A stretch of 64,000 bases of DNA from Antedon bifida (taxonomy: Eukaryota; Echinodermata; Crinoidea; Comatulida; Antedonidae): the NCBI GenBank assembly GCA_963402885.1, contig OY727098.1:16416717-16480716 (forward strand). The letters run 5' to 3'. This document shows, piece by piece, positions 12,201-59,969 of this stretch (positions within the stretch are counted from its first letter, which is position 1; the number at the start of each line of letters is the position of its first letter). The notes beneath the pieces were generated by a model. That model was not told the DNA's origin, did not search any database, and saw only the letters and a program-made list of their open reading frames with translations. The translations under genes and the position numbers were made by a program.

Positions 12201-14678
12201 TTGATCAAAACTGTCACGTTTTATTGGGCCGAATTACTCCTCCTGAGAGGTTGCGTAGTAGTTGGAACTAAGTCAAAAACGTCAAACACCACCCACACCT
12301 CAACTAATCCCTGATCCCATGATTGTTCGAGCGAAAGTGTGTTACTAATAATTAGAACGGTATTAAACCCTCGAACAATGTGTGCAAAATACCGCGTAAC
12401 ACGTCCGGTTATGGTCGATGCAGGATCTAACAACATTTCACAACTTTGCAAATGATTTTTAAATTACGACAAAATAGATTGTAATGCGCTTAAATAATGA
12501 ATAAAACAAATCAATAATAATTCAATACAGATCAAAACAGAACACAATAACAACTGTCCTTCCCACGCACGATATCTTGACTATTACGTTTATCGGAAAA
12601 TGTGTTAGGCCTATACTGCTAAAAACTCCACCAGTTAGAACTAACAAATTTTAGAAACTATATTCCATGTAATAGTCATAACTAATAATGTTCTGTAAAG
12701 TCATTATTTCATAAAAAAATTCTTTTGTGTAATCCTTCCCTGTCCTACGTTGTTTACTGCGTGAAGTGAAGATGATTAGAAATAAAGATTGAATTGAAAT
12801 TTAAATATAGAGGTCTACCTTTACTTACTTACCACTGGTTAATGTGTTAAACTGTGGGAATGCACAACTTTATTTCTGTTTTTTTTGTTCTAATTTTACG
12901 TTTATCTTTGATATTTTGTAATTTGCAATCTTTCAAGAAGATAATTCAAATATATGATCAGTGTCTGAAAAGAATAATTTAAACGAATGACACAATATGC
13001 AAAATAAATGAATCATACTAATAGAAAGTAATTTACTTCCCGTTAAAGACGAATAGTAAAGAGTCTGAAATATTCACTGGTGAAATATTGACAAACTATA
13101 GTATTTAGACATACCATGGCATTTCCCCTCCCTCCCTGACCAAAAACAATCAATGGCATAAACTTTTGTGATGCTAGCTATGAAAACAGGATTTCAAAAA
13201 AGTATCCCAAATCAATTATTTTGACTTTGTTTTCACACAATTTTTGCTAATTTTGACTAATAATTGTCGTAACTTATATCTAGGAACAAATCTTTTTCAA
13301 GTAGCAGCCCATGAATTTGGTCATAGTTTAGGTCTTGCTCATTCTGACGTCAGCGCCTCACTAATGGCGCCTTTTTATAGAGGATATATACCAAGCTACA
13401 AATTACATAGAGATGATATTGAAGGAATTCAACACCTTTATGGTAGAAAAACAGCAGTACAAGGACCTGCAACGGACCCACCAACGTACAACCCGACACG
13501 TAAACCATCAGAATGTGGGGGAAAACTAGATGTGATGACAAGGACTGCAGATGGGAACACATATGGATTTTATGGTAATGGTCTGAGGCTAAATTATTAT
13601 ATTACATTAATTAATTTTCGGTACAATAATAAACAGCAGTAAACATATAGGAAATTAACAGATAAATATATATTTTTGCATTATTTTTACTATGAATGTA
13701 ACTCAGTAGTATGATATTGTGTTTATATATTACTCAACAGGTAATACATACTGGCTTATTACTGATACTGGTGCTGCCAATGGTTATCCAAAGCCAATCC
13801 AAGAAGGCTGGCCAGGGCTACCCAACAAACTGGATGCAGGATTCTTCTGGGAAAGAAGTGGTAAAACGTACTTTTTCAAGGTAAGTATTGCAATACCCAA
13901 GATTGATACAAACAAACTATGGCACTGATTGATAGATCTACGATATAATATTTCTTTAAAAAAGGGTACCTTAAACAAATAAGGTGGTGGAGAAGGCTAA
14001 CGTCCTGTTTGCTTATCGTCATGACAGAGTAATTTATCCATCGTAAGTAAATGTCATAGCATTTATTCCAATATGTCTTTATGACAGCATTTGTTTTGAT
14101 ATTTCTTAAAGGGAAACAAGTACTGGAGATACACAAACCGAGTTCCTGATGTTGACTACCCAAAACCTATTTCAAACTGGCGTGGAGCACCAGCCAACAT
14201 GGACGCAGTTTTTGTATGGAGTGGAAATGGTCGTATATATTTTGTAAAAGATGGACAATATTATCGATACAACCCAACTACTTATCAGGTTGATCCAGGC
14301 TACCCAGCACCGTTATCAAATTGGAAAGGACTTCCACCTCGCATTGAAACGGCTATGCAGTGGAAGAATGGAAAGACATATTTTTTTTCGGGAAGCAGCT
14401 ATTGGCGTTTTAACGACAAAGCATTTGACGTAGAAGCGGACTACCCCAGACTCACGGCAATTTGGTGGATAGGCTGCTCAAATACAGCTGCTTTACAAGG
14501 GGCTGGAATCACACCAACTGTACCCGCCGCAGATGGCACAACTACATCTAGCATTCTTGATACAGACACTAAAACAATTGTATTAAACCAGAACAATAAT
14601 GCAGTGTCGAACTATTCACATCCTTTTTCAATTGTATTAATGTTTGTTACAGGTCTATTGACTCTGTTTCGTCTATGA
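9272..14678 (+). CDS. Matrix metalloproteinase with hemopexin domain, probable GPI-anchored membrane type
   Basis: Zinc endopeptidase acting on extracellular matrix. Exons: 9272-9355, 10600-10723, 10983-11194, 11551-11758, 13284-13574, 13741-13880 and 14112-14678; all phases agree and give 541 residues. Order: signal peptide (1-16), propeptide with cysteine switch PRCGNPD (83-89), furin-type RRRRR (98-102), catalytic domain with [11 protein letters not shown] (219-229) and the Met-turn Met237, Pro/Thr-rich hinge, then a hemopexin domain closed by Cys287 and Cys475. The last 22 residues are hydrophobic with no cytosolic tail, which in this family points to GPI anchoring as in MMP17/MMP25. Soluble furin-activated MMPs lack such an end. 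The exact orthologue cannot be named from sequence alone. AATAAA signals lie at 14841-14846 and 14946-14951. Confidence 0.92.
9356..10599 (+). other. MMP intron 1
   Basis: Starts GTGAGT and ends TTCAAAG before the propeptide exon. A+T-rich, with no exon, repeat or RNA gene recognised. Confidence 0.6.
11759..13283 (+). other. MMP intron 4
   Basis: Separates the two halves of the catalytic domain (after ..NSYSG, before [13 protein letters not shown]). Bounded by GTAAGT and ATCTAG. The shorter neighbouring intron 11195-11550 is likewise featureless. Reading frames inside, such as 11884-12093 and 12221-12451, look like chance. Confidence 0.6.
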
Positions 14679-15931: not shown

Positions 15932-15955
15932 TGTCTGCACCGCCAAACAATCAAG

Positions 15956-17806
15956 ATGCGCCCAATACTGGCGATCATCAGCTTTGTCGCACTTGCGACA
16001 GCGTGTGAAGATGGTTGGCAGTCATACAATGGCTACTGCTACTTGTTTAATCAAATAGGTGGTAACCGGAACTATGCTGATTCTGAAGTATTTTGTTTGA
16101 ACCACGGAGCACACCTGGTGTCTATTCATAGCGAAGCTGAGAACGCTTTCGTTACCAGAACAGCACGTGAATTAGATATGGGTAATACGTGGATAGGGCT
16201 TGATGATAATGGTCATGAAAACGAATTTACATTTTTGGATGGAACACCTTTCTATAGAGGTGGATACACTAGAGGTGAACCTAACAATCACGGGGCTGGA
16301 CAGGACTGTTCTTATTTTCCATTTGGACCGTCAGCATATGGATGGGACGACTTAGATTGTAACCGGAACAGCGGATATTTATGTGAAAAAAATAGTGAAT
16401 GCGAAGAAGAATGGATTACGTGGGGAGAAAATGGCCATTGTTACAAGTTTTTTTCAGAAGAAATGAATTACGCCCAAGCCAAGGCAAGATGTACTGAAGA
16501 AGGTGGTTACTTGGTATCAATTACAACCGACGATGAGAATACTTTCGTCATTAGGAATGTTGCTATAGAAACAAGTGGAAGGGAAAGGCCACCAAGAACA
16601 TGGGTTGGTCTAGACGACACAGATACGGAAGGGCTATGGCATTATGTTGATGAAGAGGATGCTGAATCTTTTATTGGTCATTTTTCAAGAGGAGAACCGA
16701 ACAACGCTGGCTCCGGACAGAATTGTGCGTGGTTTCCGTTTCGTGAAGAGGATGCATGGGATGATGTTTCGTGTGGGGCGCAACGAAAAGCTGTCTGCAA
16801 GAAACCTGACTTTCAACAAATGGCGACAAGCTGCAGCGGTGATTGGCTTTCATTTGGTGACAGCTGCTACAAGTTCGACAATACACAACGGAACTATGCT
16901 GCATCTGAAGAATATTGCATTACTGAAGGAGGGCATATGGTGTCTATTCATAACGACGCGGAGAATGGTTTCGTTATCGATAAAGCAAATGAACTGAATT
17001 TGCGTAATACGTGGATAGGCCTTGATGATAATGGTCATGAAAACGTCTTTACATTTTTGGATGGAACAGATTTCTTTAGAGGTGGATACACTAGAGGTGA
17101 ACCTAACGATTGGGGGGCTGGACAGGACTGTTCCTACTTTCCATTTAGAGAGAGGTATGGATGGGACGACATGCGATGTAGCAATAGTGCACAGTATATA
17201 TGTGAAAAGTTAGCTCCATGTGCAGATGGCTGGACCGAGAATGAAGGACATTGCTACAAGCGCTATAGTGATTCCGTTGATTATCCTACAGCTAAGGCGG
17301 CATGTATTGGACATGGTGCTTATTTAGTAGCAATTACAACCCAGGGAGAGAATGAGTATGTTTATGTTAATATTCAAGATGATCCGTCGTCGGACCCACC
17401 ATCAACATGGATTGGTCTAGACGACATGCAAAATGAAGGGAGATTTACTTTTGTTGAACCTGGTAATGATTATTTTAATGGACAGTTTTCAAGAGGAGAA
17501 CCAAACAACGCTGGCTCCGGACAGAATTGTGCGTGGTTTCCGTTTCGTGATCGATATTCGTGGGATGATATTTCGTGTGAGGCGCAAAGAAGCGTTGTCT
17601 GTAAGAAACCTGATCCAGCACGCAGGTTTGCTGATGACATGGCTCGTCATTTGAAAGATACCTTGTTGCATATGCGGGACGCATGTTTTGCGTCCGAAGA
17701 ACTGACGGTCGAAGACGTCACAGCAAATATGTGTGAAAAGGTAGAAGAGGTGATTAATGAATTAATAGATGATTGTGGAGGCGCCAATGCCAATGCCAAT
17801 GAGTAA
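15956..17806 (+). CDS. Secreted four-domain C-type lectin, intronless
   Basis: 616 residues in one exon. A signal peptide (about 1-16, cut before CEDGW) is followed by four C-type lectin domains at about 17-144, 149-282, 293-417 and 422-550. Each has WIGLDD or WVGLDD and an EPN motif (108, 247, 382, 515), which in this family goes with mannose-type sugar binding. The usual WND calcium motif is WDD in all four (130, 268, 403, 536). Domains 1 and 3 resemble each other, as do 2 and 4, so an A-B pair was duplicated. The tail (551-616) is charged and probably helical, with three cysteines (576, 593, 607) and a final ANANANE. There is no membrane segment. A role in recognising microbial or self glycans is likely for the family but unproven. 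AATAAA at 18151-18156. Confidence 0.9.
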   Translation: MRPILAIISFVALATACEDGWQSYNGYCYLFNQIGGNRNYADSEVFCLNHGAHLVSIHSEAENAFVTRTARELDMGNTWIGLDDNGHENEFTFLDGTPFYRGGYTRGEPNNHGAGQDCSYFPFGPSAYGWDDLDCNRNSGYLCEKNSECEEEWITWGENGHCYKFFSEEMNYAQAKARCTEEGGYLVSITTDDENTFVIRNVAIETSGRERPPRTWVGLDDTDTEGLWHYVDEEDAESFIGHFSRGEPNNAGSGQNCAWFPFREEDAWDDVSCGAQRKAVCKKPDFQQMATSCSGDWLSFGDSCYKFDNTQRNYAASEEYCITEGGHMVSIHNDAENGFVIDKANELNLRNTWIGLDDNGHENVFTFLDGTDFFRGGYTRGEPNDWGAGQDCSYFPFRERYGWDDMRCSNSAQYICEKLAPCADGWTENEGHCYKRYSDSVDYPTAKAACIGHGAYLVAITTQGENEYVYVNIQDDPSSDPPSTWIGLDDMQNEGRFTFVEPGNDYFNGQFSRGEPNNAGSGQNCAWFPFRDRYSWDDISCEAQRSVVCKKPDPARRFADDMARHLKDTLLHMRDACFASEELTVEDVTANMCEKVEEVINELIDDCGGANANANE

Positions 17807-21680: not shown

Positions 21681-24600
21681 TCAAAAATAGCATTTGATTG
21701 ACCTAGGCCATTTAAAAGGCCACTCGTACTCATTAGGTACAATACCATTAACATTAGACTTAAAATAATAAAACATAGGAAACCAAACTTGTGCTCTTCT
21801 ATCTGCATGGTGCAATGTTTTGTTATTCGCAAGTGTATGATAATAAAGAAATAAACGAGACGAAATATAAAAAGCTATGACAACATCAATTGAATAATGT
21901 TCATGGCCTGCTAAGATAAAGAAAATGCCAAACAGATTGAGAACCCATGTCAGTGTGTGAAGAAGAGTAAACCTTCGCGGGGTGTCTGCAAAAGAGAATT
22001 AAATAAAATCACATTAGAAAGTAAGCCATGACCTGGAATGGCTGTTAAACATACGGGGGAAGTACACATATGTTGGCCACATGTTGGCCACATGTTGCTA
22101 AAGGTTCTGAGTTTTTAAGCTGAGTGAAGCAGTTAAGGTATGACAACTGGTGAGTACCACACATAATAATGATAAGTTGAATAATGATGATAAGTTGAAT
22201 AATGATAATAAATTAAATAATGTTCAATCCTATGGACAACTTTGGTCGCTTTGCGTTAAATGTTGATGTTAAAATATTATTAAATAAATAATAATGACAA
22301 CAATTATAAATAAATTATATATAAATAAAATACACAAGGTGTAAGCTCTGATGAAGTATTGCAAGATCAAAAACAATGCAATATTTTGAAATAGCTGTAC
22401 GAGTAATAATCAGATGTTTTGCCCTACTCTGACGTAATTTGTACTTTATACCAAGTACATTTGAGAATACTTGCGAAAAAATTTGCAAGTAGTTCTCGAG
22501 TGGGACTCGAACCCACGACCTCCAGATCACTAGCCTGGCGTTCATACCTCTAGACCACCGAGCTTGCGCTGATGGCTAGTGGTTAGATTCGAGCCCAAGT
22601 CAGAGTAGGGCAAAACATCTGATTATTCAACTCCCTAACGCAAAACTACAATTACAATCCTGTTGGTGCAGTACCCGCTGCTTACTTGGGCTCGAATCTA
22701 ACCACTAATGTACTTAGTATAAAGTATAAAGTACAAATTACGTCAGAGTAGGGCAAAACATCTGATTATTCAACTCCCTGACGCAAAACTACAATTACAA
22801 TCCTGTATGAGTAATAAATACAAATAATACTGGCGATACTATCAATGCCACTAATAAAAGTTCCTGATACCCTATGACATAATTTTTATGTTATGAGCAT
22901 GCGCAAGTCGACCGATACATAAACTTTTTTGGACTGAGTACGAATGGACGTTTTAAAATTATAAAACTGTAAAAAGATGGCGGAGAATGATCTCACGATG
23001 ATTTTTAAGAATTTAGAACTGCATTTTTTGTCGATGAGTAACAGTTGTAACTCAAATCTCAAAGTCTAACGTCTTTAGATTGGTTTACCTAAATACTAGT
23101 TATGTTTTCATTCTCCACATCAATAATATTGTTTGCCTAAAATAACCAATTAGATAAACAAAAGTATACCTACATTCAGTAATAAACATGTTTGACATGG
23201 TAAGACAAACAGTGTGTCCACTGAACATATAATCACCGCATGTGTGTACTCCAGTAAGAGACATACCCAGTCCAAATGAAATTTCAAATGCCCTATTTAA
23301 TTTGGTCCATATGTCACCATATACCTTAAGAAACAAAAAAGATTGTAAGTTATCAGTTATGATTTTCAAAATATGCTATCCCTGGGTGCAATGAAGGACA
23401 TTATAAACAGGAATGTGTGTATACTAAATATTGCAATAAAAACGTGATCTACAGTATTATAAATTCATTGTTTATAGTACAGTAAGCTCACCATAAACAC
23501 ACACATAAGACTAGGCTTGCTTAGCACTATACACTTTTACTAAAAACCATCTCTTCCAGTTTTTGAAATCTTAGTTCTACCTCTGGGACTACAAAAAAGA
23601 CAAAAAAAATACTATTTACTTTTCCAGCACACTGTAAGTGGATTCCAGGCACTGAGAGAGATGTTACAAACATTGTGACGCACCGTAAAAGAAACACAGT
23701 ACCAAGTAGTGCAAAGCAACGGCGCAAGACAATAAACCTAAAAAAAGAATGTTTTAAAGGTCAGTTACAATCAATAACAAACAAACATTATTTCTCAAAG
23801 GTTAGGCCAAATAACAAGAAGTTCCCTCCCACTGCATAAAAATGACTTTTAACCAAGGCCATTTAAATATTTTTTTCAAATCCTTCGATTTTTCATAGCA
23901 AACAACATGATTGTGCCGTGGTCATCAACCTAAATAGCTAAAGCTCTTCATAAAAAAAAAAGAATTTAAAATCCTGGACATGAAACTAACAATTCTTTTG
24001 GACTTCAATCTATTTATGATCAAACTCTATCAGTAAGGTTTGCATACATGTAGAATTAAGTATCACTCTTACAATCTTATTTTCATCTGAAAGCTCCGTC
24101 TACACTATCAAACTAGTTTGACAAAAAAGTGTGATGTTCCCAAATATGGTAGTGATATGTGACAAAAAATGGACATGATGGTGTCATATCACTATCATAT
24201 TTGGGAACATCATTACCATATTTGGGCACATCACACAAACTAGTTTGATAGATAGTGTAGACAGCACAGAGCTTTATTTACCTATGTTTATGTATAAATA
24301 TTGTAATCGAGAAAATTGATGCAAGGATTAATCCGCACATCTCACATGCTTGAAAAGCCCATGGTATCATAGGCACACTGTCCAGAAAAATGTCGGGTAG
24401 TGGAGGGTACTTTGTCATATCTGGAACACGGTCATGTACAACTACCATTACAAAAGCTGTCAGAAGGGCTACAACAAAAGCATAAACAAAACTGATAACT
24501 GTCTTGTGTATTTCACGTTCAAACTTTGGTTTATTAATATCTGTGGAATCCTGATATTGTACGGTTTTATTTGATCGTTTATTTCTGCGGCGTAAATGAA

Positions 24601-24892
24601 TAAAATCCCCTGAACTTGGTTTTCCATTTGTTTTGAAGGTGTCAATGCTGTCATATTCACTGGCTTGGTTGGTTTGAAGTGTAGAAATAAGAAGGTAAAG
24701 CCTTTTAATGTCTCCTAATATTTGTAATTGTAGTGGTGGAGTTTTTAAGTCATCCTCATTGAGTAATAAAAGAGCTTTCCCATCGATTTTATGCTTGTCA
24801 CAGAGAATCTTGCTATATTGTTGAAATCCATTGTGAATCAGCCATTGCTCTACATCAGAGCAAGTCCAAGTACTAGCAGATGTAGAATACAT
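21681..24892 (-). CDS. SAMD8: Sphingomyelin synthase-related protein (SAMD8/SMSr type)
   Basis: ER multispanning enzyme; vertebrate SMSr makes ceramide phosphoethanolamine and controls ER ceramide. Coding exons on the - strand: 24892-24282, 23737-23620, 23324-23174 and 21985-21681, giving 394 residues with matching phases. An N-terminal SAM domain (about 8-73) is followed by membrane segments from about 131 onward. The catalytic triad of the family is visible: His280 in [10 protein letters not shown], and His323 with Asp327 in HEHYSIDV. The His-His spacing of 43 matches sphingomyelin synthases. The end, VPNEYEWPF, matches SMSr. The SAM domain separates it from SMS1/2-type enzymes, though SMS1 also has one; the C-terminus favours SMSr. 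A CAG acceptor 16 bases upstream of the ATG indicates a noncoding 5' exon further up. A MITE abuts the first coding exon's donor. Confidence 0.93.
22340..22830. repeat. Composite SINE-like repeat cluster in SAMD8 intron
   Basis: GTCAGAGTAGGGCAAAACAT occurs at about 22600 and 22743 on the + strand and inverted at about 22415. GGTTAGATTCGAGCCCAAGT (about 22580) is inverted at about 22683. The words surround a tRNA-like segment. This looks like overlapping or nested SINE copies. Confidence 0.6.
22493..22564 (-). ncRNA. tRNA-like sequence, probably SINE head (Thr AGT-like)
   Basis: On the - strand there is an A box (TGGTCTAGAGGT), an anticodon-type stem CCAGG/TCTGG with loop CTAGTGA, and a perfect T arm, GTGGG-TTCGAGT-CCCAC. 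The acceptor stem pairs at only about five of seven positions and the D stem is weak. It sits inside a repeat cluster, so it is more likely the Pol III promoter part of a SINE or a decayed tRNA than a working tRNA. Confidence 0.55.
24091..24274. mobile_element. MITE, AAGCTCTGTC family, copy 5, next to SAMD8 splice donor
   Basis: Ends AAGCTCCGTCTACACTATC and GATAGTGTAGACAGCACAGAGCTT, with the full internal ATATTTGGGCACATCAC core. Its right end at 24274 is seven bases from the SAMD8 exon edge at 24282. On the - strand the intron begins GTAAATA and then enters the element. Confidence 0.85.
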
Positions 24893-24908
24893 ATTGAAAA
24901 GAATACCT

Positions 24909-25320
24909 CTGAAAAGAAACCATCATTATTGATGAAATTAAATCAAAGCCAATTCATTATATGGTAATGTAATATGTAATGTAATACCTTTTGTTAATTT
25001 GTTATTTGCTTGTTCATTGTTACGCCCATAATAGACTCCTTTGTTTTCTAGTGTACCCTTTTTCTATATGTATTCGTCTTTTACCAATATTCTATCAGTA
25101 CCTGATGATGACCTATGGTCGAAATTACTTGTACAATAAATATTTTATTTTGAGGCAGAAACAAGAAATTTGTCTGTTTTATTTTTATACATGATCCTGC
25201 CTATGCAGCACCTATTTCTTTCCTAATTATATGGTAACGTGTGAACATAAAATTAAATTTGTCAAAAGAACACACTTTATAGTACACAATACAGAATAAG
25301 TTTACTATATTACAAATTAA
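24909..25320. other. Intergenic/5' intron side of the divergent pair
   Basis: Lies immediately upstream of the SAMD8-like coding start on the - strand. A CAG acceptor (24909-24911 on the - strand) implies this stretch is the 3' part of a 5' intron. No coding exon recognised. Confidence 0.5.
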
Positions 25321-25750
25321 TTAGGCTAGCTAGGTCATCTAATCACTAGCTAGGTTAGCCAAACTAGCTTGGCCGACTAGGATAGCTGTCTGTCTGGCTA
25401 GCCCAGGGCTTTTGATTAATTAAACTAGAGGCTAGGTCCCTACTACACAGGCTACTACTACTAATCATACTAATAATAGTTTTAGTACAGACTACTAAAA
25501 AAGTAAACTAGCCTAGCCTAGGCGGCTTAAAAGGCTTATAATAATGATGAGGTTAGCCTACTACTAGAAGCAAAGATTGTATTGCTAGAGCCTACTAGAT
25601 AGAGGGCCTAGCTAGACCTCTGGGCCTAGTCCTAACTCCTAGTCTAGAGCTAGCCTAGGCCACCCTCTACTCTAGCCTACTAGCTAGCTAGATATAGCCT
25701 ATAAACCATGTTTTACGGCGCGACTTGTCTAGGCCTATATTATAGGCCTA
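25321..25750. other. CTAG/TAGGCC-dense block between divergent genes
   Basis: About 28 CTAG tetramers were counted by eye in 430 bases, against one or two expected for this base composition. Many are joined as CTAGCTAG or CCTAGG. It lies between the SAMD8-like and PLA2-like genes, where a shared promoter region would be expected. No coding frame. Confidence 0.6.
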
Positions 25751-25779
25751 GACAAGTCGCGCCGTAAAACATGGTTTAT
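25701..25779. repeat. Perfect 79 bp palindrome
   Basis: Arms 25701-25739 and 25741-25779 are exact reverse complements around a single T at 25740. The arms contain CCATGTTTTACGGCGCGACT and end at the centre with AGGCCTATA. It could extrude as a cruciform, or form a long RNA hairpin if transcribed. Confidence 0.9.
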
Positions 25780-26488
25780 TGCTCAAGGTATGTGAGGTGG
25801 AAATAATGGTTTTTGGGAATGTTCTTACATTTAAAACAAAAAGGCTGGTCTGATAAGCGTAGGCCTCTACTATCTAATTCTAAGTCGGAGGTGGTAGGCC
25901 TAGAAATGTGTAGAACGCCCATCATGCAACCATCCTATCTTCCAGAACACATGACACGCTCCGAGGGCGTTTTGGGGCCAGAGGTTATAATAAAGAGTTA
26001 CCATTTTCCTCTGGACCTACATTGATATGATAATTTCAGATCTTCCATTATTTAATTGTTAAAGCATTATTAAAAACGTATTAATAATATAAATTTTAAC
26101 TAATTAAATATTAACTAATTAAACAATTGTAAGCAATAAACAAAATCAAATATTATTATTGTTATATTGTGCATAATTCCCATTACCAAAATGGAGCTTT
26201 CTTCCTCATAAATATTCATTTCGTAATGTCAAAAAGATCATTCAAGCGTAGAAATGACAACAATGGAAGGCATGTTCTTTGTAAAACTCAGCCAAGAGGC
26301 TAATAATGCGTAATAAAAGCCACGTAGCACTGGTAAAGATATTTTGCTAATTAACAGGAAATATTCTATTTTTTAACAGAAAATTTCTTGTAACCCGTTA
26401 TGTAAATAAATCTTATTGATTGCGGAGACGACGTGGGTTCTAAATTTGATAAAGAAAATTCAGAAAGGGTAGCGAGAAGGGTAGCAAG

Positions 26489-29400
26489 ATGTATTGGACT
26501 CATTGGGAAAATCTAGGCCTACTCACCATGGTAATGACGTTTACGAACTACTGTGCTGCTAGTGAATTCCAGTTGCCACCCGAACTAAACGACGGTGTAC
26601 AGCTAAGCCCCGAGAAATCAGCACGAGTTATTGAGAGTATAAAAAAGCTGGGCAAATTGTATGACAAGGCTGACACTGGAAACAAAAACCAAAATATTGA
26701 CTGTGGATTTTATTGTCCAACAGGTAGGCATCCATTATCAAATAATTAAACACGTGATTCATTTACCTGGCATTAAATAGTTATATGTTAGGCCTATTTA
26801 CATCTTATAGTAACCCATAATATTAATTAAAAACAATGAAACATAAACTTGAATAATGGCACAACTATTTCATATTACACAAAATAAAAGTTAAAATTGT
26901 GCATAAAAAATGTATATGAACCATTAATTGAGTTCAATAAATACCGTATATATGATGAATGAATTCCATTAATATTAGGTAAGCAAATATGCAAGCAGTT
27001 ATAAATTCATTTAGTGTGGATTTTATTGTAAAATTAAAACTTAAAATGGAACAAATAAATAGATTTTTTCCAAATTATATTCAGATCTTATAGCCGTTGA
27101 AAAACCAAAGCATAAAGTCTATCCAGATGGCTGTGGAAGCCCAGAAAACAAGGTACTGTATGTATTTCTGTAGTTACAGATACAGGTGTCATTTGGAATA
27201 TTTTGAAGAATAAAAACATTGCTGCTTTAAGACAAGATCTATTACAGTTGGATTGACCTAACTTAGTGCCTAGATGCAGATGCTATCCCCCTACCCTTTT
27301 TTTCTTTTTTTTGTTATCATTTTAACTTCATGTTTAATAAAGCCATTCAGACTTAAGCCTTGTGCAAAAAATTCATTTGTATTTCGCTAAACCATTGGTA
27401 ATTTGAAGAGAGTGAGAGAGTTTATACAAGTTGCAATCTGTACATGGGGCATTCCACAGTATTTTTTTGTTACGGACGGGACATTTTTGAGAATATAACT
27501 AGACATATCTTAGAAATAAAAAAGAATACAAGATTCAAAGTAGAATAAATGTATACATATATGGCCAATGTTTATTATGAAAGTCAAAAAAAGAAAAAAG
27601 ACTGTACAAAAAAAAATTTATTATGAAAATTGTATGCGTCGCGGACAGGACGGCAAATGGACATGACGTATTGTAATATTTCTCCTCATTTAAAAGAGAT
27701 TTTAAAATTTGTTTTGTATTATTATGTTGCCAGATAGTTGTTTTAGATAATTGAATGTTAATTATAAAAATTAAACTGCAAATTTATTAATAAATATGAT
27801 TTATATGTCGTTACGGACGGGACATTTCTAACGTCGCGGACAGGACAACTTTGTCCACGTTAAAAAATTGTATAATTTTGCTATTAAAAAAATTTAAAAA
27901 TAAGTTTTTTACATCAATGAAATCTTTTATTTACAAATCAAAATATAATTCAACCTTTGAAACTCTGTTTAAAAGTTTATGTCATGTGAAAATATTAAAA
28001 TTCATAAATATGAAATATTATTTATAAAATTAATTATTCGAAGAGTTATAACGAGAAGAAATATTGTAAAATGTTATCAAAATATTTATTTACACTAATA
28101 TAAAAGTTATGCTTGGCATATTAAACAAGACTTCAAGATATTAACACATTTAAGGCGAATCTTTAAAAATTGGCGTTGGCGTTTGACGTCTGAATTTGTT
28201 AGTGGATCCAAGTTGCATCTGAAATTTTCTTCTATCCTTGCTTGGATTTAATAACTGTAGGCCTACTTCTATTAAAATTCAATCTTAATTATTTAGTATC
28301 TGATTTATAAAAGGTTCTTGGTTGCAAATTCACCAAAGAATAAAATCTACAAAGCGATGACCGCACCCAATACTCCCATTCATACTGGTCATGTTGTTTT
28401 GGATTTAGGTATTGTTCTTTTGTGGATTGTTATTTTAAATACAGACCACAATGTTTTGTGATTAATAAACAACAGTTAACACCTTTGTACAGTACTTCTC
28501 AGCCTACAGTACAAAAACACTTTTTAATTCTTACAATATTGTCATCACATCCATAAAAAAAATGTCCCATCCGTAACATTCAATACATTTTGATAGTAAT
28601 GTTTTTTTAATAAAAAAATACAAGTTTTAAAAAACTTGTTTAAATCTATTGCAATTTAATATCCTTAGGAGTTGAAAATTAAGATTTAAAATTAGGAATT
28701 AAATAACAATTTTAAAACCATTACTTCAATAAACACAAGTGAGGAAAAACCCCCAATCGAAATGTCTCAGAAGTAACAATTATGAATTTTGAAATGCAAG
28801 TATGAAATTAATAAACAATTTTAATAAAATACTTTATTATGAATAATTGGAGCTTACTTTGAAAAAAAAGTAACTGCAGTATATTTATATATGGGCAAAA
28901 ATGTTAACAAGATGCATGGTTTTATTATGAAATAAAAAGGATTTAAATGATATGTCCCATCCTTAACAAAAATGTCTGTCCCGTGCCTACGAAAAATGTC
29001 ATCAATATATTTTTGAATATGATATTTTCACCAAAAGTTTCAAAATATTTGTTTATAATGTATTGCATATAGTTTTAAAAGGAGAAAACAAAATATTAAA
29101 TTGTGTTATCAATACTTTTAACTGAAATGTAAAAAACACCATAAAACTGCTATTAAAATGTCGCGGATGGGACAATTATGAATTTTGAAATGTATATATG
29201 AAATTTAATAAACAAAATATGTGTTATAAAATGCTTGAATATGTACAATAGGGACATAGAGTAACTATATCTGGCAAAAAAATGTTCAAAAGATGCATGG
29301 TTTGTGAAATAATTAGGATTTAAATGATACGTCCCGTCCGTAACAAAAATGTCCCGTCCGTAACAATATATTTTTGAAATATGATATTTTCATCAAAATC

Positions 29401-31454
29401 TAAAATTTTCCAAAAATTTGTTCATAATATAATGAGATATAGTCCTCAGGAGGAGAAAATGAAATATCAAGATTTTTGCATCATTACTTTTAAAATAAAA
29501 GTAAAAAAACCGCCTAAAACGTCGCGGACGGGACATTTATGAATTTGAAATGGATGTATGAAATTAATAAACAACAAAATTTTAATTAAATACTTGATTA
29601 TGTATTATTGAGACATAAAGTAACTATATCTGTTGAAAAAACAGTAATAAGATGCATAGTTTATGAAATAAATAGGATTAAAAATGTCCCGTCCGTAACG
29701 CCAAATATGACTTTTTCATATTTAATATTCAATAACTTAAAAAGTCAATATCAGAAAAATAAAAAAAATGTTATTTAATAAACTTCAACATGTCTACTTT
29801 GAGAAATGGCCAAGAGTTACATCAAAATCAGTAAATGAAATTTTTAAACCCACGGACCAAATACTGTGGAATGCCCCACATTCAATTTTGTGTATAATTG
29901 TTTTTCTTCAGCTTGATTTTCCAGTTGTACCTGAAATTATAAAATGCTGTGATACACATGACATCTGTTATGGAACCTATGGAAAAGTTAAACATATATG
30001 CGATAAACATTTACACACGTGCATGGAAACAGAATGTAGAACTGCTATGAAATCTCTTGGGTTTAAAGAATCACAAGAACAAGGTAATATAGTATATAAC
30101 AAACAATTCGTTTACCAAAAAATGTGTCCTTCCACAACGTCGTATTATATAGGCCTAAAAAAGAAATCAAATATGTACAGTTAAAGAAAAAAAAACATTT
30201 TAGTATTTAAGAAATATGTACAGGTCAGCATAATTAATAAAGATATTCAGATTATTGAAATTTTGCCTTTGCATTTTGTAAGGGTATCATAGTACTAGTA
30301 AAGGGTTTATGGATAGTTCAATTAAAGCCCCCTTCCCTACGTTTTTTAGATCTAATTTAAGATCACAAACTATATTTAATGTAAAAATAATACTATATGG
30401 TCCTATTGCGATAACTTTTTTCGTCTTTAAACGGTTAAAAATGTGAAAAATAAGTCGATTCTAATAATTATAGCGGCCCGCTATAAATCCCAAAATGCAT
30501 TGCGCGCGGATTGATATTTTTGTTTTTCACCTGTAATTCGCCCACTTTTCGATCGATCGTGAGGCCAAAACAAATGGAAGACTCCTAACTTTTCAGCGAA
30601 AATACCGGGTTTTCCCCAATTTGTATCAACAGAGTGTAGCAAAAATAGAAAGACAATTAATGCAGCAACTATACAACGTCAGGCTAGGTATATATAGCTA
30701 GCGTACGATGTTCGTACGTTACCGATGTTTACCAGCTAGGCCTACAAAACTAAGCCTAGCTAGGCTAGGCCTAAGACCGTCCACAAGAGGTCGATCGCCG
30801 CGAGCTACTTAGGTAGTGCATTGTTTCTCACTTTTTATCATAATTTACCATAAAACGTACATTTAAGACAAGGAATGACATGGTTTAATGTTTTTAAAGT
30901 GATATATATGTATTATTTTCCAAAAAACGTCCAAAATTGCAGGGAAGGGGTCTTTAAGTACTTAATTCTACAGCCCTCCTTTCCTTGACCCCCTCTATTT
31001 CGATGTCCATGATCCATCACTGATCATTTTGTGTCGGCAGCTGTGAGTCAGAAAGGGAGGGGAGGGGAGTCAATCCTGCGTTATTGTTTAACCACATTCA
31101 TTTAAAAAAAATCAAACTGGTTTTATTTTTTCAGGATGCAAAATGATGAGTAAACTGTTATACTCCTCTATGATGAGCTCTAGTTGTGATGACTATAAAA
31201 AGGCACAGCAACAGGCTATACTATGTGAGACTGACGACGATGATGATAACGATGATGATAACGATGATGATAACGATGATGATAAAAAGGCAATAAGCAA
31301 AGAAATAGATGAGAAATCAGTAGAATATAATAATGATAGAAAATACGAAGCCGATGATGATTTTGTAAGTGTAGAAATAGAGGATTCCGATGTTCTTGAT
31401 GATGAAGATGTAATCAGTATTGAAGATGATTTAAAAATAAAAGATGAACTATAA
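26489..31454 (+). CDS. Group XII-like secretory phospholipase A2 with acidic tail and C-terminal KDEL
   Basis: Would hydrolyse the sn-2 acyl bond of phospholipids. Exons: 26489-26723, 27085-27152, 29912-30083 and 31135-31454, giving 264 residues with phases agreeing. The hydrophobic N-terminus (LGLLTMVMTFTNYCAAS) is a likely signal peptide; Met14 or Met16 could also start. The calcium loop is PDGCGSP (92-98), as in PLA2G12A, and the active-site block is CCDTHDICYG with His117 and Asp118. His is retained, unlike PLA2G12B. The core ends near Cys189. After it come (D)nN repeats and an acidic tail of about 75 residues ending KIKDEL, an ER-retrieval signal. Vertebrate family members are about 190 residues and, as far as I know, lack this tail. 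Likely an ER-lumen, calcium-binding form. A candidate AATAAA lies at 31821-31826. Confidence 0.87.
27446..29877. mobile_element. 2.4 kb non-autonomous DNA element in PLA2 intron 2
   Basis: Inverted termini GGGGCATTCCACAGTAT (27446-27462) and the exact reverse complement (29861-29877) are flanked by the direct repeat ACAT (27442-27445 and 29878-29881). The inside carries many copies, in both orientations, of TTACGGACGGGACATTT (for example near 27471, 27811, 28560, 28950, 29330, 29520 and 29690). The right half holds a tandem unit of about 365 bp. No transposase frame. The right end lies 34 bases before PLA2 exon 3. Confidence 0.8.
28763..29710. repeat. Tandem unit of about 365 bp inside the ACAT-flanked element
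   Basis: Three successive copies (starting near 28763, 29158 and 29520; the last partial) share ordered landmarks: GTCGCGGACGGGACA..TATGAATTTTGAAATG, then AAGATGCATGGTTT..GAAAT, then ATGTCCCGTCCGTAACAAAA. Diverged but collinear. Noncoding. Confidence 0.7.
30326..30953. mobile_element. TTAA-flanked MITE in PLA2 intron 3
   Basis: Ends AGCCCCCTTCCCTACGTTTTTT and, inverted, AGACCCCTTCCCTGCAATTT...GACGTTTTTT, with TTAA at 30322-30325 and 30954-30957. The interior includes an A+T/C+G patchwork with GCTAGGCCTA words. No frame. Confidence 0.6.
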
Positions 31455-31599
31455 ACAAAGATGTATTGGTGCTACTATAGCTTGATATTCGTTTGCGGGA
31501 GCCTGCACAACGTGTATCCCGCTACAAAGTGAAAACAAACAACGACCACCTTGAATTTTAATTAAAAAAAATTTTTATTTTGATAGAGATCAGAGTGGA

Positions 31600-31705
31600 G
31601 TTGTGGCTTGGTGGTTATGATGCTTGGCTACCAATCTAATGGTCCTGGGTTTAAATAATGTCAGAATTGTTTTCTAAAATGACAACTTACAACTCCACTC
31701 CCAAA
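31600..31705. repeat. tRNA-derived SINE-like fragment
   Basis: GTGGCTTGGTGGTTATGATG resembles a tRNA A-box region, and CCTGGGTTTAAAT a degraded B box. A GAGTGGAGTTGT word is repeated inverted about 80 bases later. It lies in the PLA2 3' region. Confidence 0.4.
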
Positions 31706-32210
31706 TAATTGTATTATACTTTGTTTATGTAAAGCATCTGTGTATGTTGTCTTGTTAACAGGATTGCCACCTCTTTAAGAAGGATAGTGAATTAATTCAC
31801 TCATCCTTGGCAATTTGCCAAATAAACAAACTAATATCTTAACAAAGGAATAATTGGTATGACCAATATTGTAATGTCCGTATGAGTAATGCCTGACTAA
31901 TAATAAAACGGCAATAAAGCAATCTGGATACATTCTTAACATCATAATTGCATCTAACATTATTACCATCGTTATTACACTTTAAATATTTAACCTTGAT
32001 ATTTATATTTTGTACTTTTTATAGCTGATAGTACGGTACCATATAGAAACGCGTGTTTATCTTCCCCGTTGATTACGTACAGTTTATTTTTTCAGGAAGA
32101 GAAATAAATGTATAATACATGTTTTACAAAATGTATTTGTTTTCATTATATAGTTGATTCATTTGCATCTATTTCTACGTCGTCCGGTTCAGTTTTTTTT
32201 GTTCGGTAAG

Positions 32211-32289
32211 GCTACGTTCACACCCGGAGGTTAATGCTTATACGGTACTAATCTGTAACTATACACATGACCATTGGTCTGAACGTAGT
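32211..32289. mobile_element. MITE of the GCTACGTTCACA family, short copy
   Basis: GCTACGTTCACACC at the left and CTGAACGTAG at the right are inverted. Same termini as the copy in the lectin 3' region. Confidence 0.5.
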
Positions 32290-33898
32290 TTAAAACTGGA
32301 AAAGACTAATTTTTAATAATTTATTATATTAATTTTGTCGTTTCGTAAAATACAATAGCATACCGGTACACTTGTCTTAACACGTAGTACTGATATATTG
32401 CCCTCTATGACCAAGAATAAAATAGAAATCAATTCTACAGATTCTATGAAATATAGATGCGGTAAACAGACTACTCAATTTAATAGCAAGGTTTGTAGGC
32501 CTATATTATGCAAGTTGTAATATTCCCAGTGGAAAAAAGAGGACAGAATTGCGTGCATTACGGTTAGACCTACTGTAGGTGTTAATACAATCGTACTGTA
32601 TTCGTTGTAAGAGGCTTTTGACCGTGGCAAAGCTTTGTTCGATGAGAGATCTACGGTTTAAACATCCGTGTTTTTCAAGTAGATTTCTACCAGTAGATCA
32701 ATGACTTAGTTCTTATCTTACTCTTTTCAACACACGAGTTTAGCTACTGTTGTTCCAAATGTGTACGGGCTATGACCCACAACTAAAGAAGGAGTATACC
32801 TACCATTAGATAAGTAAGTTACACATTTTATTATGTTCTTTTACGAATCATTTCAAGATTCAAGAAATGTTATTGGTCCACTTTAAAATGGAAATTTGAT
32901 TTGCTTGGCATGATTAAGACAACAAAGCAAAATACATCTAATTGCAAATGGCAATGCTAACATTCTATTTAAATGTTAAAATACTGTTAAAAAAAACTAT
33001 TAAAAGCGCCATAGGCTCTGTTATACCTTAATGCAGTGTTATTTAAAATATATATATATATAAAACATTCGATTGTGCTGTGACATATAAACCTAGGGTG
33101 ATTTAAACGGCAAGCGTTTCATTTAGCTTTTCACAACAAAACGATCTATTGAGAAAACGAAGTTTAAAACAGTACGTAGACCTATATATTTCCTATGGAA
33201 GAATCAGTACATTTTCACAGAGTTATTATATTACAACTGAACATTCAATCGATGCTCTAAATAAATCCTCTTTTTATAAGTATTTGTTATAATTTTATTT
33301 TTATCTTGACTGTGTTATTTGGAGTACATGTAATGTACTGTATTGTTTTGATATGAGCATGGATAAAGTATTATAAGTCTATAGTTGGTTAGGTGAAAAA
33401 TGACTGTCGGACTATAATTCGTTATCTTGTTATTCTACATCAGTACATACGGTACCGTACAATTCAATCCGATTCGATTATCAATGTATAACCTGTTGAC
33501 TTAATTATATGTTTTTATTTCTGTAAGTACATTAGATTCGATGTGAATTTCCCGAGGCACGTTCTGCCATTGTTTAACACACTTGCTCTGTTGGCTACAT
33601 TAAGACTTTTATTAGTTCATATTGTATATTGTGTCTGTAAAATATATGTAGGTCTATTACTCTGTTGGTCAATTTTAACCACACACTTTCCCAGTGTAAC
33701 ACAACATAATTTATATTTAGTACTAGCAAGATGTAATAACAGTCCAAAGAATTAAAAAAAAAATAACAATAACATTTTTACATAAAAAAGTTTTCAACCA
33801 TGTATTAATCTTAAATCTCAAATAACAGAGACCAGTTTGCGATCAATGTTTTTGAAGTTGCGTTATAGGCCTACAATTACTACATTTCAGGACTAATA

Positions 33899-54909: not shown

Positions 54910-57900
54910 ATGGGCCAATGTTGCTGTTGCTTATACATTCCTAGGAATCACGAGTTAAGCGAAACAGATTCATTTGCCACATTGACGTCGTCATCCACAT
55001 CAGAGAACAAGAGCCTATGGCCAGACGCAAAGAAGAATGACAGGGTGTGGTTCTGGGTTTCAAAACCCACAGAGGAAACAAAGACCCCGCCAAGTGAGTG
55101 CATTGATTGATATTAGTGTTCCCACTTAGACGAAGCGCAAGTAATTTGACCAATCACGACCCGTGGATCATTCGAACTGTCGCTTGTGATTGATCAACTC
55201 ATTGCGCCTACGTTGTCGTTGCGCCCAAAAGTGGGCACCAAATGTTAAGCCTGTTTTATATTCGCCCAAATTAAATAAAGGCCAAGTTACATTTACACAA
55301 CCCGCGGAGCGGACGGGCGGTTGCCGGGATACAGATACTGTACGTGGAAAAAGCTGCGCGGTTTTAGTTGTGCGCATGTTTTCCTCATCTCACAAAGGAA
55401 AGGATCACGTCTTTAGACAAAAATGTCATTACTAAAACCTAAAACTATGTGTCCCATTGATACATACAGTGCATTGGTATTATTAATTATGTTAACCATA
55501 TTGAACTAAACGACTCGGATGCTTTGATGTATATCTCCCACGCGACCCATTTGAAGGATATTTTGTTCCGTATGGCCGCTGTGTCGATTCAGGAATAAAC
55601 TCAATAGCATTAAGTTATATTGATATAAGATAATGTTAACAAAGCATAGTGGATTAAAATTATCTTACCAGTTGTTAAAACAACATACGGGAAAATGAAA
55701 TATAAATTTAATGCAATGATTTTTCGAATTTAAAAAAAAAAGTGAAAAAGGCTAAATGAAGTGTATGATATATAGAATGGCAATTTTTAATTTTGTGTAT
55801 TTAATTGCTATTCCCATTGAAATCCATGTGATGTTCTCATACGGTATCATTCTATAACGACAATAAACTGCCAACAGTATCCATCTAATGTTCTCGATGT
55901 AGCCCATGTGTATGGAACGTGTGGTTGCCGTCACACATAAGAACAAGCTGTTTATTTCGTTTCACAGGAAATTATATTAACGATATAGACTTGCCCCAAG
56001 CCTGTATTCATTGTCTTTTTTTTATTTATTTGTTTTTATTTCGATTTTTGTCTGAAGCTCAAGTAGTATGAAACACCATGTGCCAAAATATTTATCTTTT
56101 TACTAATACTAAGACAAAACTCCGTCTGGAACCCAGACTATTAACGATAAAGAGTGTTACAGTGACCGAGTAGAGTCTTTCTTACTGCGCATAATGCGTA
56201 TATATTTTACGTCACGGAAGCACGCGTCTTTGTGAGTGCTGCATTAAACTGTTTTGTACTATTAATCACATAGCATCTGACAGTGGAGATTCCTCAACAT
56301 CGCACGATGAAGCAGTGCCAGCTATTACGTTAACAGTTTCTCCGAGCGTCTCACCGATTCCAGAAAGGCGACGGAGTTTCACACCTCAGTTTCCATTAGG
56401 TACGTTACGTCCTGAGCTGTACGCCAGTGATGACGTCAAAGCAGACGGAAAGCGTTCAAGGTCATATTCCGGAGGAAGTAATGATGAATTTACGGAAACG
56501 TACGGATCTGTTACGTTCGCTATTAGATACAGCAAAGCATCGCATAGGTAAGTACAATAACACCTGAAATATGTTATGTTATTAAAATTATTTGTCTAGG
56601 TTGGTTTTAATTTTCAAACGAGTTAAACAGACATGCTATACGCACTGGACCGTAGCATTGCATTTCGTGCTGTCAAGCTTAGTTCCCACTAGGACGCGTC
56701 GCTTTTGATTGGGCAATTAGCTTGGGTTGTGGCTTACGTCCTTGCGTTGCAATCATATCTGTATAATAGTGTATAAGGTGGCCGTAATAATATAGCTTCA
56801 CATTGTCGCCTTAAGAGTTTTTTTTAATGAAATTTGGTAAGATTACATAGAAGGTACTAGTTTAGGCTCATGGTAATTATGCGTGTGACGACAATCAACG
56901 ATAATACGTGGGTCGTCGAAAATTGAAAGCTGCCATAATTATGATGAGATTGACGATTATTATAACAGTTAGCTTTGATGCTGATATTGATTGTTCTTCA
57001 TTTAATGGCAAACAATCATGTGTAAGAACGTCACACTTTAAATGATAAGCAAACGCGTTATGTAGGTATATATCAAATAATGTCATTGTATAGTGTGTCT
57101 ACATTTTTGTTTTGTAATCTAAAAGGATGGTTGTACATCTTCAGCAAGTTTCCGATCTACCACCAAAAGGACAGGGGGACATCGCGTATGACACTATTGT
57201 ATCAGCATGTATTTTACCTGATGAAAAGTTTACTTGCGAGTCGAGCGTCGTGCACCGAACGCTAAACCCAGATTATGACGAAGAACTCGACTTTCCATTA
57301 GATATGAAGAAATCATTAGAACGACAAGCACTGCGAATGTCTGTATGTGATGCTGTTCGACGTCATAAGTATAACGTCGTTGGACACGTGATCGTTCCGT
57401 TTCCACAGTGTGATTTTAGTGGAACCCCTAAAACGTTCAAGAAAGCAATCAAGAAAAGATCAAAGGTATGAGTCCGGGGTGTGTACGTATACGCACAATG
57501 TTTATTTAGACCACGATGAGGTGGTTATGAACATTTAGACTGACTATTGTAATATCAAAATAGTACAGTCATAAGAACTCACTCAATAACCCATAAAAAA
57601 GTACGTAGCGTAGCGTACGTTTTGATATCTAACCCCAATGCTATCCAACTAAATACTAAATAGTATTTAGTTAGATGTGTTTACGTTAGTGCAAAAGTTC
57701 ATAGAATTTTAAAAAGCGAAATGATTAAATGATCACGATTTTTTTGACAAGCACCTAAGCCTTTGTAATCTAAGCTCTTAAATATCGAACAACTTGTTAA
57801 AATATATCCCATGAGAATAATGATTCAATCGCCTATTTAATGCATAATCCATTAAAACTACTGTATTTAAGTGTACTTCGTGTAGGCCTAGCTTCAATCG

Positions 57901-59969
57901 TGATACCGCGATTGAACATGGATTTATTAGTAAAACACGCGCTGTTTAAAAATAAACGTTCGTATTATGCTTAAATACCTATTTTGAAATGAAATACGAG
58001 GAAACTCGTTTAAAGAGCGCACACTTCCTATGAATAAAAATAGAAAACAGTAAATCAACACATTTCTATGAACTAGTCAAATAGCTTTGCATCTGAATAG
58101 TTGAGTAACATAATATGGTGCTGGTAGATACAACTACTCTTGACTCAGTCTTACATTTATTTCTCTCACACAGAATATTTATTATGACAATTGTGTGTCG
58201 TGCTTGTTAAAACGACCTCGTCTAAGCAAGTGCATACACAATCGTCTTTAGGCTGAATCTGGTGTATGCATTGCCATTCTAGAATAACATTCGTCTTTGA
58301 TTCTAGAATGGCTGGCATGGCGTCTATAGTATCATTTTGAGATAGGCGGATATAATACAAACGCTTTTGTGGAGATATGTACACTACCTGTCTCAATTGT
58401 GCTGCGAAACAAACAAACAATAAAAACAATTGATATAAGATTATTACAGAACTATACGATATTGTTCCGTATTTTTCTTTTAGCACGACAACATGAGAGG
58501 ATTTTCGATCGCAATTTTCAATTTCGCTGACACACACGCGCACAAACTATACTATCGTACATGTATACATTGTGTGCATTGGCATTGTCTTTTCAAAGTT
58601 TACGTTTGAGAATATGTTAATTTGATTAATTTAACAACAATTAATGTTATTGACAGATAACACACCACTTGGGACGACTGATGTTAACGTTGGCGTACTT
58701 ACCTTCAACTGATCGCTTGTCTGTTGTTATAATTAAAGCTAATGGATTACAGGGCATGGAAAAGGAGACCAAAGAGCTACAGTCAATGGGTAAGTTAGAC
58801 ATTTTATTATAATACTAATAATAATAGTTCATTCTTATATAGCGCATATGAGCCAGTTCTCAATGCGCTGAACATTATTACCCCAGTAATTTTTTTGGAT
58901 CAAACACGTATGGAAACATACTCCCATAATGCAGCTAGTAATCAGCGCAAAGTTGTGTCTTGATCTAACCGGGTACCCATTTATACACCTGGGTGTATAT
59001 AACTATATAAATAGTTATATGCCGTCCTGTTATCTCAATATATATCAAGTAACGATATCAAGTTAAATTCATTCTTACTTTACGAAAACGATGGCCTGTT
59101 ACAATGTATAACATTCACCGATCCGCAATGGGAACGAAATGAGTCCCAACTTACGTATCTAATACCGTTATGCATTACGTCATTCTATAATGTAATCACG
59201 CATAACGAAGAAAGTGTCATCACAACATATTACCGGTATGATATTTAACGTTAAGGCCTATAAATGAAAAGAAGGTCAGTTAGTTAATAAAATATTGTTT
59301 GGTTAACGGGTCCAAACGATATAAACAATACACTGAATATTTCATTCTTTCACTTTTTACTGACGTAAAGCTTAATCAAAAATAAAATGACACAGTTTGT
59401 ACAAAAACACTGCTAAATTTAACGGCCCTTTATAGGAGAGTTATACCTCCTTCGTGTAAATCATTTTTTTTTTTTATACTATGTCGAATATAGGCCTGAT
59501 GCCAGTGTTAAATCGAGTAAATAAATAATGTTTAAATGACGTCACGATCAAACTGTACCACTAATGAACTCTAATATTTATACGTCCACGTATGTGTGCT
59601 TCGTTTTTATAGCTTCTATACACAAAAGAATTGCCACTTAATGAGAGCATATTTTTTATTTCAGAAACGTATGTAAAGGTATCTTTAATGGTGGGTGAGG
59701 ACAAGGTAAAATCACGTCATACTAACGTGTCGACTGGCTCGAGCCCTATATTCACAGAATCATTGACGTTTGTCGTACCAAATGAATATATTAGTGACGC
59801 TTGTCTTGTAATACAAGTTTTGCAGAAAGGACATTTTAAGAGGGATGATACAATTGGACGACTAATTCTAGGCCCGTACATGTACACAGATGGTCGCAAT
59901 CTAAGTCACTGGGGTAAAATGGTCACTCATCGCGAAGCCACCAAAAAATGGCATGATTTATATTTATGA
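54910..59969 (+). CDS. Synaptotagmin-like protein with two C2 domains, predicted calcium-independent
   Basis: Vesicle/membrane trafficking adaptor. Exons: 54910-55093, 56274-56547, 57126-57465, 58657-58789 and 59665-59969, giving 411 residues with phases agreeing. The N-terminus MGQCCCC offers acylation sites in place of a transmembrane segment. A Ser-rich linker leads to C2A (about 139-262) and C2B (about 271-400), ending in the family's HW..M..H......WH pattern. Most calcium-binding Asp positions are changed: in C2A, AYDTIV replaces SDPYV and loop 3 reads CDAVRRHKYN; in C2B, METYV replaces SDPYV and loop 3 reads LQKGHFKRDD. By eye it is nearest to Syt12, while the cysteine cluster recalls Syt17/B-K. 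The subfamily is therefore left open. AATAAA at 60067-60072. A GTG-initiated extension upstream of 54910 was not used. Confidence 0.85.
55117..55240. mobile_element. Short foldback element, TTGACCAATCA family, in Syt-like intron 1
   Basis: TTCCCACTTAGACGAAGCGC..TTTGACCAATCACG faces GTGATTGATCAACTCATTGC..GCCCAAAAGTGGG. Related sequence lies at 47166-47275, and a fragment (TTCCCACTAGGACGC) at 56683-56760. Confidence 0.6.
55270..56273 (+). other. Syt-like intron 1, right part
   Basis: Contains CGCGGAGCGGACGGGCGG (about 55302), which recurs near 61162 with a TTTATACAAAACGCGGAGCG context, a dispersed repeat. Otherwise A+T-rich; no exon recognised. Confidence 0.5.
56548..57125 (+). other. Syt-like intron 2
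   Basis: Bounded by GTAAGT and CTAAAAG. It contains a fragment of the TTGACCAATCA foldback family at 56683-56760 and nothing else recognised. Confidence 0.55.
57466..58656 (+). other. Syt-like intron 3
   Basis: Bounded by GTATGA and TGACAG, between the C2A and C2B exons. A 125-codon frame on the - strand (58166-58543) shows no domain and is treated as chance. Confidence 0.55.
58812..59005 (-). mobile_element. Retroelement 3' end (SINE/LINE) in Syt-like intron 4
   Basis: Read on the - strand it ends TGCGCTATATAAGAATGAAC then (TTA)n. On the + strand GCGCTGAACATTATTACCCC and GGGTACCCATTTATACACCT are words common in invertebrate retroelement tails. The truncated body has no frame. Confidence 0.6.

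Follow-up and report, generated by a model that had tools for sequence, protein, structure and literature searches.

In the crinoid Antedon bifida, a gene of the group XII phospholipase A2 family (PLA2G12) encodes a predicted protein that ends in KDEL, the signal for retrieval to the endoplasmic reticulum (ER). The gene lies in a 64-kb stretch of contig C11 (the window), within an assembly of 315.6 Mb in 27 contigs. We consider it probable that the protein is an ER-resident PLA2G12 orthologue and the counterpart of vertebrate PLA2G12A and PLA2G12B before their duplication, with an acidic insert of about 67 residues placed ahead of the KDEL-like ending of the family. The original prediction for this locus had described an acidic tail followed by KDEL and had compared it with calreticulin-type calcium-storage proteins. 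That prediction is partly supported here, its observation being real and its interpretation half right.

The PLA2G12 gene is on the plus strand and has four exons with AG/GT (GT-AG) borders and start phases of 0, 1, 0 and 1, giving a predicted spliced product of 264 residues (Table 1). The start at 26489, the junction 30083/31135 and the stop were exact on re-reading of the letters and frames. Exon 4 (31135-31454), with the acceptor ttattttttcag, is in frame with exon 3 (29912-30083); its own frame runs from GCKMMSKLL to AILC, continues with ETDDDDDNDDDNDDDNDDD and closes with DDLKIKDEL and a TAA stop ending at 31454, which confirms the proposed passage from the PLA2G12 core through an Asp-rich tail, here of 75 residues, to KIKDEL-TAA. 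When exon 4 was searched against the genome, the sole full-length match was exon 4 itself and six others were weak (E 0.05-0.6), so the possibility that it is a repeated stray sequence was rejected. A scan of 24000-33500 with Rfam found no RNA at gathering score.

A Pfam-A search assigned the protein to PLA2G12 (PF06951) with an E-value of 5.5e-22 and 79 bits against a cut-off of 34, residues 47-196 being aligned to positions 33-183 of the 184-position profile. The other two matches (E 0.053 and 0.67) were both under their cut-offs, and the calreticulin family (PF00262) was absent from these three Pfam families found at E up to 1. A CCxxHDxCY active site and a GCGSP-type loop are motifs of PLA2G12, and the protein has both: CCDTHDICY begins at residue 113, with the His-Asp pair intact at residues 117-118 as had been predicted, and GCGSP, presumably the calcium loop, is found in exon 2 at residues 94-98. 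The stretch from residue 25 to residue 189 contains twelve cysteines. The protein is probably catalytically active, and with its kept His-Asp pair it resembles the active PLA2G12A type in that respect. A comparison with solved structures by sequence returned two matches up to E 10 (E 0.17 and 0.27), neither of them significant. Searching the 315.6 Mb with PF06951, where only the best candidates were scored, gave one locus, exon 3 of this gene, and the gene is probably single-copy.

We used the PF06951 profile as a witness for the family and scored edited forms of the protein in bits. The unaltered full-length protein scores 79.0 bits, and when it is cut at Glu190 the score is 77.9 bits with the match ending at profile position 177. 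Removal of residues 192-258 (67 residues), which places ETKIKDEL directly after Cys189, raises the score to 81.8 bits and extends the match to 184 of 184 positions. On this short form KDEL scores above all ten altered endings, namely KTEL (81.3), KTDL (81.0), HDEL (80.8), KAEL (80.6), KDAL (80.5), KDEA (80.5), ADEL (80.4), DELK (79.4), LEDK (79.1) and SGSG (78.8). Ten random tetrapeptide endings scored between 78.7 and 79.7 bits without any of them reaching position 184, and the best was MHEL, which has EL in common. The family model thus ends KDEL-like and, by these scores, prefers KDEL at its end. Its profile has about eight positions after the last cysteine, while the Antedon protein has the KDEL-like ending but 67 residues before it. 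Human PLA2G12A, the product of a four-exon gene, ends in KTDL, which is KDEL-like.

The closest known parallel is PLA2G12B. According to PMC10920679, its C-terminus bears the ER-retention motif KDEL, and the protein stays in the ER, bound to membranes and undetected in the medium. An allele in which the KDEL signal is disrupted has virtually lost the ability to rescue zebrafish. The calcium-binding motif of PLA2G12B is also essential for rescue, and the protein is described as catalytically inactive, vertebrate-specific and absent from invertebrates (PMC10920679). The Antedon protein shares with it the family, a putative N-terminal signal, the presumed calcium motif and the terminal KDEL, with ER residence being experimental for PLA2G12B; it differs in keeping the His-Asp pair and in its acidic stretch, of a kind that goes unmentioned in the sections of PMC10920679 covered here. 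PLA2G12A shares the family and the His-Asp pair with the Antedon protein, and the acidic insert sets the latter apart from it, as does the description of PLA2G12A as a secreted phospholipase and a substrate of ER-associated degradation (PMC10803770). The KDEL of PLA2G12B, together with the KDEL-like end of the profile, led us to reject KDEL as a novelty in group XII. KDEL looks like the rule rather than the exception in the PLA2G12 family. The original prediction, which knew of no group XII enzyme with such a tail, therefore fails for KDEL and appears to stand for the acidic stretch, the latter as compared with the Pfam profile only.

A terminal KDEL is unlikely to be an accident here, because it ends a four-exon gene of a family that includes the KDEL-bearing PLA2G12B, and because the chance rates are low. 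It directly precedes the TAA, thus being a [KHR]DEL at the extreme C-terminus. In the window, counting both strands and all frames, [KHR][DE]EL comes before 3 of 8,655 stop triplets with the PLA2G12 stop included, and shuffling of the tail residues yields a terminal KDEL at a rate of 0.0002. Outside 31100-31500, frames stay open for at least 75 codons from 2,076 of 125,998 frame starts (1.6%), a count in which frame starts overlap one another and coding exons are included. The genome also has a KDEL receptor locus (PF00810). ER residence is likely and well supported by the hydrophobic N-terminus, the terminal KDEL, the receptor locus and the analogy with ER-retained PLA2G12B (PMC10920679). The original prediction had offered residence in the ER, or calcium sensing, in place of secretion; the former is upheld as likely and the latter finds nothing beyond composition.

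The tail after Cys189 contains 27 Asp and 10 Glu among its 75 residues (37 acidic residues, net charge -29). Part of it is encoded by a 12-bp tandem repeat (Table 1), and the remaining 56 residues, which begin with KKAISKE, are non-repetitive, yet open and acidic. GAT is used for 25 of the 27 Asp codons. What appears to set the protein apart from the family, as represented by the Pfam profile only, is the acidic stretch, some 67 residues that separate the last cysteine from the KDEL-like ending. Among the listed titles and abstract openings of papers on group XII or PLA2G12 in echinoderms and invertebrates, and on secreted phospholipases A2 (sPLA2s) with tails, none described such a tail for a group XII member.

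In other genes of Antedon bifida, too, acidic residues appear to lie close to a terminal xDEL, and such a stretch alone therefore does not imply calcium storage. There are two PF00262 loci, of which the one on C11 near 27.51 Mb is calreticulin-like, with an acidic, Glu/Lys-rich last exon ending in HDEL; at the other, on C10, no open frame ending in xDEL was found within the 6.4 kb examined. On C16, near 18.03 Mb, a GRP94-like gene of the HSP90 family (PF00183) contains an acidic exon with EEEEEDEDEAGDDDNDNDDD, and one of its later exons ends in KKDEL, while the HSP90 gene on C14 ends in MEEVD. The names calreticulin-like and GRP94-like stand for family plus ending, with the splices to the last exons assumed. 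Both proteins resemble the PLA2G12 protein in that HDEL or KDEL comes after an acidic stretch located at the C-terminus or close to it, but they belong to other families, and the Glu/Lys-rich, HDEL-ending last exon of the calreticulin-like gene is unlike the Asp-rich tail with its 12-bp repeat. For the proposed calreticulin-type calcium storage, composition is the sole evidence.

In the mechanism that we propose, the N-terminal signal would take the protein into the ER, where it would fold as a disulphide-rich PLA2G12 domain with its His-Asp pair and a calcium-binding loop, and the KDEL receptor would return it from the Golgi by means of its terminal KDEL. The acidic residues, about 67 in number, would most likely form a flexible spacer of negative charge and so leave KDEL exposed, and their charge may give rise to weak calcium binding. 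The insert is best read as being in part a 12-bp repeat expansion, most likely a disordered spacer that has partly grown by repeat slippage; calcium binding by it is possible, with composition alone as the basis.

Several observations weigh against this reading, or limit how far it can be taken. The link to the family ending depends on excising the insert exactly, since two Asp kept before KIKDEL give 80.7 bits and a match that stops at position 181, and the whole preference for KDEL is small at about 3 bits. Changing KDEL to AGSG in the full-length protein leaves the score at 79.0, as expected if the insert separates the motif from the core. The N-terminal stretch has only moderate hydrophobicity (best 9-residue Kyte-Doolittle mean 1.96), the exon 3/4 junction and expression of the tail are predictions from genomic letters, and PLA2G12A has been described as secreted (PMC10803770). 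A diverged second PLA2G12 copy could escape the genome search, given that exon 3 alone matched. Searches with the 118-residue core gave six pattern matches in prokaryote contigs and one in viral contigs with no confirmed relatives in either, results that are uninformative on animals.

Among the alternatives, the chances are about even that the acidic stretch has no calcium role and arose by a near-neutral expansion of repeats, which a disordered C-terminus tolerates since KDEL remains terminal, an explanation that is compatible with ER residence. The perfectly matching 12-bp repeats look recent and the predominance of GAT is what GAT slippage predicts, although the 56 residues outside the repeats have stayed open and acidic. 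A calcium-storing or calcium-sensing ER phospholipase, in which low-affinity, high-capacity binding by the tail feeds or gates the calcium loop, seems unlikely to us: the acidity and charge of the tail would suit it, as would the calcium requirement described for sPLA2s (PMC7603386) and the essential calcium motif of PLA2G12B (PMC10920679), but the tail is rich in Asp and Asn and partly tandem, as opposed to the Glu/Lys-rich exon of the calreticulin-like gene, and the acidic exon ahead of KDEL in the GRP94-like gene makes composition alone unspecific. It is a long shot that the insert tunes the enzyme by loading calcium at normal ER levels and keeping the enzyme in a set state, such that a fall in ER calcium would alter the tail and either activate the enzyme or let it slip past retrieval. 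This idea draws on the report that KDEL-type retrieval fails and the proteins are lost on depletion of ER calcium (PMC8196686). If true, it would tie ER calcium stores to phospholipid breakdown, and it would also fit ER residence as the old state of the PLA2G12 family, with PLA2G12B having kept residence and lost catalysis.

Asp-rich secreted proteins occur in calcium-carbonate skeletons, and the family carries the name 'secretory', so the protein might be mainly secreted, its acidic tail serving for example to bind mineral of the echinoderm skeleton and its KDEL being weak or masked. The exact terminal KDEL, the KDEL receptor locus and the ER-retained relative PLA2G12B (PMC10920679) make this improbable. 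Least probable is an error in the gene model or alternative splicing, by which the main transcript would have another last exon or leave exon 4 ahead of the acidic frame. The exon structure is known from genomic letters alone, and of two donor-like sites within exon 4 (31225 and 31365, both 6/9, the real donors scoring 7, 6 and 7) the one at 31225 may be usable and would cut just before the tail. Exon 4, however, completes the domain, reaching profile position 177 at residue 190, before it runs to the terminal KDEL, and the genome holds no second full-length match to it.

In this crinoid, the sole PLA2G12 locus found combines an intact His-Asp pair with a terminal KDEL, which suggests residence in the ER already before the vertebrate duplication, and 'secretory' may then be a poor label for the PLA2G12 family. 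The acidic insert offers a natural experiment in what an ER enzyme can carry ahead of its retrieval signal.

Table 1. Coordinates of the PLA2G12 gene parts and of other features in the window
Feature	Position	Strand	Details
Exon 1	26489..26723	+	Start Met ATG; signal-like hydrophobic N-terminus, about residues 1-24; PLA2G12 region begins; donor CAG/GTAGGC
Exon 2	27085..27152	+	Carries GCGSP (27129-27143); phase 1 in, phase 0 out; AG/GT borders
Exon 3	29912..30083	+	CCDTHDICY active-site segment; His-Asp at 29957-29962; alone matches PF06951, E 4.0e-10
Exon 4, first part	31135..31226	+	Final PLA2G12-domain cysteines, up to Cys189
Exon 4, acidic tail	31227..31451	+	Residues 190-264; insert relative to the Pfam profile = residues 192-258
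Tandem repeat in tail, 12-bp unit ACGATGATGATA	31237..31285	+	4.1 copies, 100% matches; encodes Asn/Asp (NDDD) runs
KDEL codons and TAA stop	31440..31454	+	TAA = 31452-31454
Repeated element, intron 2, outside the protein	27445..29878	+	About 2.4 kb; 20-nt perfect terminal inverted repeats TGGGGCATTCCACAGTATTT; inner repeats GTTACGGACGGGACATTT
SAM + PAP2_C gene (SAMD8 / sphingomyelin-synthase-like)	21684..24922	-	PF00536 E 2.6e-11; PF14360 E 1.9e-7, 1.2e-15

About 1.5 kb upstream of the PLA2G12 gene, and divergent from it, lies the SAM + PAP2_C gene, which holds both PAP2_C matches found genome-wide. The two genes may represent an old linkage of two phospholipid enzymes. Both matches found to the mitochondrial calcium uniporter family (MCU) are on C11 as well, at 1018651-1019507, about 15 Mb from PLA2G12. 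We take human PLA2G12B to lie in the MCU and SAMD8 region of chromosome 10, and human PLA2G12A in the MCUB and SGMS2 region of chromosome 4. If this human linkage is true, the window preserves a linkage of old standing, and both vertebrate copies have their counterpart in this gene. Human coordinates for PLA2G12A and PLA2G12B are printed in PMC10920679. The mitochondrial contig C27 (15,844 bases) has a COX1 frame that stays open with genetic code tables 5 and 9. Table 9, used by echinoderms and flatworms, translates AAA as Asn and ATA as Ile at conserved sites, for instance in DRN.NTTFFDP, whereas table 5 has Lys and Met there; this agrees with an echinoderm source but, being shared with flatworms, is no proof by itself.

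The element in intron 2 is a probable non-autonomous DNA transposon. With at most one mismatch, its terminal 20-mer matches the genome 102 times in forward and 99 times in reverse orientation, compared with none for the reversed-pattern control, and several of the listed matches are paired about 2.4 kb apart. A 39-nt perfect inverted repeat, with arms 1 nt apart, is located at 25701-25779. Elsewhere in the window, a single 624-codon open frame with four C-type lectin matches spans 15932-17803, open frames at 13184-14675 resemble matrix metalloproteinase exons (a matrixin domain and three hemopexin stretches), and two open frames with C2 domains at 57118-59966 are perhaps exons of one C2-domain gene.

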